The translations under genes were made by a program, and so were the position numbers. From Chloroflexota bacterium (GTDB lineage: Bacteria; Chloroflexota; Anaerolineae; CG2-30-64-16): a stretch of 64,000 nucleotides of DNA. The stretch is taken from positions 1 through 64,000 of the forward strand of contig JAPLHB010000109.1 in assembly GCA_026389845.1 (NCBI GenBank), read 5' to 3'. The notes beneath the pieces were generated by a model, which was given only the letters and a program-made list of their open reading frames with translations, did not search any database and had not been told where the DNA came from. Each line of letters begins with the position of its first letter. Within the stretch, counting starts at the first letter, position 1. This document shows, one piece after another, positions 31,816-32,166 of the stretch.

Positions 31816-32023
31816 TACTTGGCCCGCAACGACTTAGGCGGGCCCGGGACGCCAACTGGATAGCCGGCGACGAACGGAAGTAGTAGGCCAGGGCGCAGAG
31901 AGCGGGGGAGGGTGAAAACCTCGCAGGCGGCACGCCCCCGCAGGCTTCGTCAAGGCCGAACTCGTCCGGGAGCCATACCGGGAGCGCCCGTTACAGCGCA
32001 GATCAAGTGGTCGGTTCACGCAC

Positions 32024-32096
32024 GGGGCTGTAGCTCAATTGGGAGAGCGCTTGAATGGCATTCAAGAGGTAAGGGGTTCGAACCCCCTCAGCTCCA
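32024..32096 (+). tRNA. tRNA-Ala (anticodon GGC), nested in T-box stem III
   Basis: 73-nt cloverleaf, no encoded CCA. GGGGCTG/CAGCTCC acceptor; D-arm GCTC/GAGC; anticodon stem CTTGA/TCAAG with loop ATGGCAT, anticodon GGC; T-arm GGGGG-TTCGAAC-CCCCC-like. Discriminator A at 32096. Eight nt of T-box sequence (about 32016-32023) precede it after stem III strand one, and strand two begins one to two nt after its 3' end. Confidence 0.93.
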
Positions 32097-32126
32097 CTGA
32101 CCGGCAATCAGGGTGGTACCGCGGAG

Positions 32127-32166
32127 TCCCCTTCGTCCCTGTGACGCAAGGGGATTTCTTGTTTCT
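32127..32166 (+). terminator. T-box terminator hairpin
   Basis: TCCCCTTCGTC pairs with GACGCAAGGGGA (one bulge), followed by TTTCTTGTTT. Its 5' arm overlaps CGTCCCTG, which would be sequestered in the antiterminator when uncharged tRNA binds, the usual mutually exclusive arrangement. Confidence 0.8.

Follow-up and report, generated by a model that had tools for sequence, protein, structure and literature searches.

The closest described relative of the element treated here is the leucine-type T-box leader (Rfam model RF00230) in front of leuS, and the element itself is the leuS leader in a 64,000-nucleotide stretch of DNA from a Chloroflexota bacterium (GenBank assembly GCA_026389845.1, contig JAPLHB010000109.1, positions 1 to 64,000 of the forward strand), which as a whole is called the window below. 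The leader of the window shares with this type a stem I with the specifier CUC, the stem II region, the purines at stem III, the UGGN sequence, the terminator and the synthetase gene behind it, while it differs from a standard T-box in that a whole tRNA gene lies in its stem III. The T-box review reports curious insertions in each T-box domain whose structure and function are unknown (PMC7583486), and the accessible parts of this review and of the TBDB paper (PMC7778990) mention no nested tRNA.

Some other systems resemble the present one in part. For example, the GOLLD RNA is also a large structured RNA harbouring a predicted tRNA gene, but it is phage-linked, its function is unknown, its mycobacterial tRNA is termed a pseudo-tRNA, and it is not a riboswitch (PMC6582537). 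In Bacillus cereus, the tRNA-like element tRNA-Other has been proposed to act as part of a larger regulatory RNA, and tests have addressed its relation to trpS1, a T-box gene; however, it is a pseudo-tRNA that does not serve translation, and the accessible text describes no nesting in a T-box (PMC3399842). As for processing, the thrS and thrZ T-box leaders of Bacillus subtilis are cleaved upstream of the leader terminator, the enzyme being RNase J, with RNase Y also proposed (PMC3997798). No tRNA gene inside a T-box was found in the literature searched, which did not cover the comparative survey of 2008 and the review of 2009 on T-boxes, and the accessible parts of PMC12452182, PMC2965389, PMC4919913 and PMC1262725 hold nothing on such nesting. 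Within these limits the initial annotation, which knew of no described case, agrees with our search: the parts are known, and for their nesting and its breadth no earlier description was found.

A leuS T-box leader with tRNA-Ala(GGC) in stem III

Our results revealed that the leader is a T-box for leucine (specifier CUC) whose stem III contains a complete tRNA-Ala(GGC), as the initial annotation had proposed. When the region 31816-32200 was scanned with cmscan, a single RF00230 match was obtained that covers model positions 1-219 and places the long insert in the stem III loop, and the insert is a cloverleaf with a GGC anticodon according to both ARAGORN and the covariance model (Table 1). The match has 57.7 bits and the Rfam gathering score is 93 bits, and because of this the default scan reported only tRNAs here; in fact none of the nine T-boxes in the window genome reaches 93 bits. 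Eight nested relatives, one per phylum from eight phyla, were scanned as well, and each of them gives a single full-model match spanning the tRNA, with E values from 2e-29 to 2.8e-9; L013 (133.2 bits) and L029 (100.7 bits) are above the gathering score and the other six are below it. Stem I and the T-box, which had been joined into one leader by the initial annotation, thus score as one leader in the window and in all eight relatives. At three nested tRNAs the scan also gave tmRNA matches, which we read as cross-matches of tRNA-Ala to the tmRNA model.

The specifier CUC of the window stands for leucine and fits the leuS downstream, and by a strict pattern the same specifier is found in 98 of 110 distinct leaders; as for the remaining 12, ten have CTC in a slightly altered context (by eye), L127 is ambiguous and L099 is without stem I. 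Both the purine motif 5'-RRRxG before stem III, which is taken from the T-box review (PMC7583486), and the AA after it are present in the window leader. Between stem III and the tRNA lie seven linking bases at the 5' side but two at the 3' side, and an alternative register (32008-32014 with 32097-32103) has seven pairs as well. The leader further has the UGGN bulge sequence and a competing terminator hairpin; of the terminator with U-rich tail described at first, the hairpin is borne out, while the tail turned out to be interrupted and is weak. Across loci the two strands of stem III vary together: 103 of 117 loci could be anchored for a column test (14 were dropped), and in the 85 distinct ones 5.27 of 7 pairs are kept, versus 3.88 after swapping of partners and 4.14 in the best of 500 swaps. 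In a duplex test the matched strands have a mean of -11.4 kcal/mol versus -8.0 kcal/mol for swapped ones.

Nesting is not a general habit of T-boxes, a notion that was rejected as the other eight T-boxes of the window genome are without an inner tRNA by ARAGORN. Beside one of these (L003) a tRNA-Val(GAC) is located at 1774-1847 on the minus strand, about 10 bases upstream of the T-box, and the open reading frame (ORF) downstream of this T-box is thrS-like by eye. Short tandem repeats (GAAGCTA, CAGTTTC and similar) are observed 3' of the leader in the window, at 32172-32292 and 32932-33004, and similar letters appear in a different T-box of the same genome (L004, 1501-1820), in the loops of its stems II and III; perhaps this repeat settles in T-box loops.

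Table 1. Features of the leuS leader and its surroundings in the window
Feature	Position	Strand	Basis and remarks
Promoter-like site, sigma-70 type	31701-31729	+	TTGACA - 17 nt - TATACT, 11/12 consensus
tRNA-Ala(CGC), opening the presumed transcript	31743-31815	+	ARAGORN; covariance 60.2 bits
T-box leader, single match across the nested tRNA	31861-32143	+	RF00230, 57.7 bits, E 3.6e-12
AGTAGTA landmark	31879-31885	+	sequence
CAGAGAG landmark	31896-31902	+	sequence
Specifier CUC (Leu) in stem I, within GAACTCG (31958-31964)	31961-31963	+	covariance alignment, sequence
CGTTA, stem IIA/B region	31989-31993	+	covariance alignment, sequence
Purine motif AAGTG, directly 5' of stem III	32005-32009	+	sequence
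Stem III, 5' strand	32010-32016	+	seven standard pairs with 32099-32105, two of them G-U
Nested tRNA-Ala(GGC), without encoded CCA	32024-32096	+	RF00005, 64.9 bits; ARAGORN gives 32024-32097
Stem III, 3' strand, two bases past the tRNA	32099-32105	+	followed by AA at 32106-32107
T-box motif AGGGTGGTACC = AGGGUGGUACC; UGGU could pair with ACCA	32110-32120	+	covariance alignment, sequence
Terminator hairpin and interrupted U-rich tail	32123-32166	+	fold; hairpin 32123-32158; pattern match 32136-32153
Alpha/beta-hydrolase-like ORF between leader and leuS	32302-32949	+	under the curated cut-off of every family matched
leuS, leucine--tRNA ligase	33028-35937	+	TIGR00396, 922.2 bits vs cut-off 548.4

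Recurrence of the nesting and state of the tRNA gene

The search for further cases used a pattern of any tRNA T-arm followed by the T-box motif at 16-46 (or 17-47) bases, which is blind to the identity of the tRNA and to the gene. In a scan of the contig collection at least 119 stretches matched, and matches were found in 19 of the 60 genomes searched, which are the window genome and 59 relatives; these 19 include nine of the ten genomes of the window's family, with the window genome counted in. The combined set of 138 loci is a lower bound, and the nested loci counted below are among these. In 121 of them ARAGORN calls a tRNA that ends 5-40 bases before the T-box, and this tRNA is Ala(GGC) in 120, the exception being the tRNA-Ala(CGC) of L099; the 121 loci represent 117 distinct leaders, which come from many assemblies and in some cases from named strains. 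By tblastn with the LeuS of the window, leuS is found downstream in 110 of the 121 nested loci, so the related leuS leaders with the same nested tRNA that the initial annotation proposed to search for do exist. As regards the 11 loci without a leuS match, six have less than 1200 bases of downstream sequence and five have 1459-1673, and one of these five (L128) has the same leader as L103, in which leuS begins at +1596. The distance to the gene differs between loci: the leuS match starts about 730-830 bases past the T-box in L129, L132 and L133, and within about 115 bases of it in L130, L131, L135, L136 and L137. The 17 pattern matches without a call of a nested tRNA were sorted by eye into a nested tRNA truncated by the end of the locus (L026), a locus whose edge carries what looks like the 3' end of a tRNA (L035), six T-boxes with a chance T-arm-like stretch (L019, L044, L076, L078, L096 and L145) and nine further matches that look like chance.

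According to record titles, the 103 nested loci from named records comprise 53 in Bacillota, 28 in Chloroflexota, 8 in Thermomicrobiota, 3 in Armatimonadota, 3 in Atribacterota, 2 in Coprothermobacterota, 2 in Actinomycetota, 1 in Caldisericota, 1 in a Pseudomonadota bin and 2 unassigned; that is, eight phyla are named in addition to the one bin. On a LeuS tree built with FastTree (110 rows) the phylum labels change 12 times, where the minimum possible is 7, which we read as a layout probably inherited vertically for the most part, with some transfers or misnamed bins. Of 300 Chloroflexota genomes with a completeness of 90% or more, 35 contain the pattern, with 33 of the 36 rows tRNA-end-like by eye, and therefore the nested layout is scattered rather than universal. 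A different arrangement was also detected in a set of 300 genomes. CUC T-boxes with a short stem III, as found by pattern, occur at 19 loci in 14 genomes, and leuS follows in 10 of them; in seven of these ten non-nested leuS T-boxes a tRNA-Ala(GGC) in the same orientation precedes stem I, at a distance of about 110-210 bases from the specifier, and none of the other nine CUC T-boxes has such an upstream tRNA. On the LeuS tree, which was sampled for nested loci, at least three changes between the nested and the upstream position, in one direction or the other, are needed. As a special case, L099 has a promoter-like stretch directly before its CGC tRNA, with stem I missing, the T-box motif kept and no GGC match in the genome, and this locus could, judging from its layout, derive from recombination between two tRNA-Ala genes.

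The nested tRNA is intact wherever it was inspected. Over the 110 distinct nested contexts, including the CGC tRNA of L099, all 770 of 770 acceptor-stem pairs are standard; at pair 4, 90 contexts have G-C and 20 have C-G, and pairs 5 to 7 likewise vary on both sides. The pair G3:U70 is the identity pair of tRNA-Ala, and it is found together with the discriminator A in 110 of 110 contexts; CCA is encoded in 73. As for the number of copies, 48 tRNA hits are listed in the window genome, 47 of them over the cut-off, and ARAGORN run around the hits gives one gene apiece for Ala(CGC), Ala(GGC) and Ala(UGC). By a GGC-anticodon pattern each of the ten family genomes has one Ala(GGC) copy, which is that of the leuS leader; the exceptions are G009 with one extra non-tRNA-like match and G006 with two contig ends that are taken as one split locus. 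In 45 nested genomes, where the matches of this pattern were sorted by eye, there is a single match in 34, one match plus a non-tRNA-like one in 4, two copies in 4 Ktedonobacteria and none in 3; coordinates were compared for six of the 34 (L010, L014, L022, L066, L085 and L089), and in these the single match is the nested copy. The three genomes without a GGC match are that of L099, whose nested tRNA is CGC, and those of L036 and L100, and because the pattern misses some Ala(GGC) genes, as in the latter two, it is probable but not certain that there is just one Ala(GGC) gene. In the four Ktedonobacteria (G062, G063, G064 and G386) the second Ala(GGC) gene lies elsewhere, G062 having one non-tRNA-like match besides, and there the nested copy might be dispensable. 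Since the acceptor pairs, G3:U70 and the discriminator A are conserved and the gene is mostly single, the nested tRNA is presumably released, used and maintained for translation. For the same reasons, namely the conservation in 110 of 110 contexts as well as the single gene in the family genomes, the two exceptions aside, and in 34 of the 45 nested ones, a folded tRNA tolerated as a structural arm, the other option of the initial annotation, is too weak an explanation alone.

The positions of promoter-like sites point to one transcript through the leader and the tRNA. In the region 31640-32320 of the window the only such site is that before tRNA-Ala(CGC), where shuffled sequences have a mean of 0.2 sites; the initial annotation names neither this site nor that tRNA. 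None stands between stem I and the nested tRNA, which supports the initial annotation in this respect. In 94 distinct leaders scanned (23 were skipped owing to short upstream sequence or lack of GAACTC), the mean best promoter score is 8.26 before stem I (shuffled 6.41) and 6.21 between stem I and the tRNA (shuffled 6.11). A score of at least 8 is reached before stem I in 66 leaders and between stem I and the tRNA in 10, and the score inside is above that upstream in 18; three of the ten (L033, L055 and L059) are short leaders in which the site really lies before stem I, as judged from the T-box starts of L055 and L059 and, for L033, by likeness. On these counts, the idea that the nested tRNA is as a rule transcribed from its own promoter was rejected. 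Moreover, tRNA-Ala(CGC) precedes stem I in the window and in eight other loci, and since no score above 6.0 occurs between this tRNA and stem I in the seven such loci scanned, the promoter should precede tRNA-Ala(CGC) where it is present.

A proposed sensor and tRNA precursor on one transcript

We propose that the leuS leader is a dual-purpose RNA, namely a leucine sensor and a tRNA precursor on one transcript, and we give this reading a probability of about 70%. The parts stand in the described order behind a promoter-like site, the layout is conserved, and the tRNA is under selection as an alanine tRNA. Transcription would start at the promoter at 31701-31729 and pass through tRNA-Ala(CGC), the T-box stems I and II, stem III with tRNA-Ala(GGC) at its tip and the antiterminator or terminator, and read-through would extend the transcript into the hydrolase ORF and leuS. 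Because the nested tRNA precedes the decision point, every transcript extending past it would carry tRNA-Ala(GGC) whatever the state of leucine, and uncharged tRNA-Leu would control only the continuation of the polymerase into leuS. Stem III is common to both T-box states, and hence a folded tRNA at its far end should be tolerable during the decision, which would be made over the next 60 nucleotides or so, from the end of the tRNA to the terminator. Processing would come afterwards, with RNase P and the 3'-end enzymes releasing the tRNA from terminated and read-through RNAs alike. It follows from the layout that such an excision would part stem I from the switch, and on this point the initial annotation, which had the sensor split from the antiterminator, would be right; the competition of maturation with sensing that it foresaw is a conjecture. 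The read-through mRNA would then have its 5' end near the 3' strand of stem III and upstream of the hairpin. Such a start of the leuS mRNA behind the tRNA is plausible by analogy, since the thrS and thrZ leaders are also cut upstream of the leader terminator. To our knowledge there is no tRNA inside those two leaders.

Several observations weigh against this proposal, and part of them can be read in favour of other explanations. The free fold of the leader has -129.8 kcal/mol versus -122.8 or -125.0 with the tRNA and stem III enforced in two registers, which means that an unconstrained fold favours another structure by 4.8 to 7.0 kcal/mol; the whole leader folds barely better than shuffles (z -0.99), and the duplex test of stem III is a weak one, with the matched strands better than all ten swaps in 21 of 111 loci where 10 are expected. 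As the specifier is CUC, tRNA-Leu(GAG) is expected to be the sensed tRNA, yet it was not found in the window genome (assembly 93.9% complete), whose leucine tRNAs are CAG, UAG, CAA and UAA only, and by pattern it is present in none of the ten family genomes (21 genomes were scanned, and GAG appears in G012, G019 and G020). This pattern, when its anticodon is freed, fits three of the four leucine tRNAs of the window genome, and a looser GAG pattern gives ten matches in the family genomes with no tRNA around any of them; either the gene was missed or the T-box of the window's family is without its classical partner. The lack of this tRNA would be understandable if the T-box of the family no longer senses leucine and the leader is but a tRNA operon with a terminator before leuS, and one family genome (G002, with L149 on the reverse strand at about 1360-1760) goes in the same direction: its stem I is gone and its T-box motif decayed, while by eye a promoter-like stretch, both tRNA-Ala genes, the terminator and leuS are retained, so that it is to be regarded, from its sequence, as a natural deletion of the sensor. 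We nevertheless hold such a loss to be rather unlikely for the window, which still has stem I, the specifier, the stem II region, stem III together with the purines beside it and the T-box motif, and nine of the ten family genomes share the nested pattern. Separate starts of the tRNA are possible in some other groups, as judged from promoter scores. Five Ktedonobacteria loci (L011, L079, L080, L097 and L119) have an inner site like TTGTCG-17-TATAAT with scores of 8.3-8.9, ending 34-42 bases before the tRNA, and two Syntrophomonas loci have a weaker one (8.1). That the nested tRNA has its own promoter and merely overlaps the leader is improbable all the same, because those five Ktedonobacteria loci score 8.1-8.7 before stem I too, the inside mean over the 94 leaders is near the shuffle level, and the window has no inner site. 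As for an artefact or a chance insertion in one assembly, the window does come from a draft with 228 contigs and 8.13% contamination, but the recurrence of the layout in 117 distinct leaders from many assemblies excludes chance as the source of the nesting and refutes a local insertion, which leaves this explanation practically without credit.

The dual-purpose reading itself may be too strong or too modest. In a weaker form, stem III would be a permissive loop in which the tRNA gains a strong and constant promoter, with the T-box indifferent to its passenger. The stem and loop of T-box stem III are variable according to the accessible text of the T-box review (PMC7583486), the stem III loop of L004 holds repeat-like letters, and the upstream arrangement would yield equal co-transcription; on the other side, the tRNA is always tRNA-Ala, and the gene is nearly always leuS where enough downstream sequence exists, while varied tRNAs would be expected at a permissive site. 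We regard this form as a serious candidate with somewhat less than even chances. In a stronger form, excision of the tRNA would itself be regulatory, and the state of maturation would feed into leuS expression: a fast RNase P would remove the sensor ahead of the decision or release a trapped tRNA-Leu, and a slow one would permit antitermination. It speaks for this form that the tRNA sits between sensor and switch, that 120 loci from many phyla share this placement, and that they do so although an upstream placement, seen in seven loci, would be available; the three or more changes between nested and upstream positions on the LeuS tree, however, imply that nesting is not indispensable, and we consider the stronger form doubtful. 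Equally tentative is the view that maturation of the inner tRNA cuts off the sensor, times leucine sensing, resets the bound tRNA-Leu and makes the 5' end of the leuS mRNA; if it were true, the supply of alanine tRNA would be coupled to the charging of leucine tRNA in an old and widespread design.

Meaning for the bacteria concerned

A practical consequence is that T-box scans at stock cut-offs can miss nested leaders, as happened in the window. If the leuS leader does work as a sensor and a tRNA precursor at once, tRNA processing and tRNA sensing would operate on one molecule, and stem III would be suggested to be able to carry a whole L-shaped domain. The leader would then offer a natural system for the race among transcription, RNase P and the riboswitch decision. 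For the bacteria themselves it would mean that several phyla cut their tRNA-Ala(GGC) out of a riboswitch, which often seems to hold the only gene for it.
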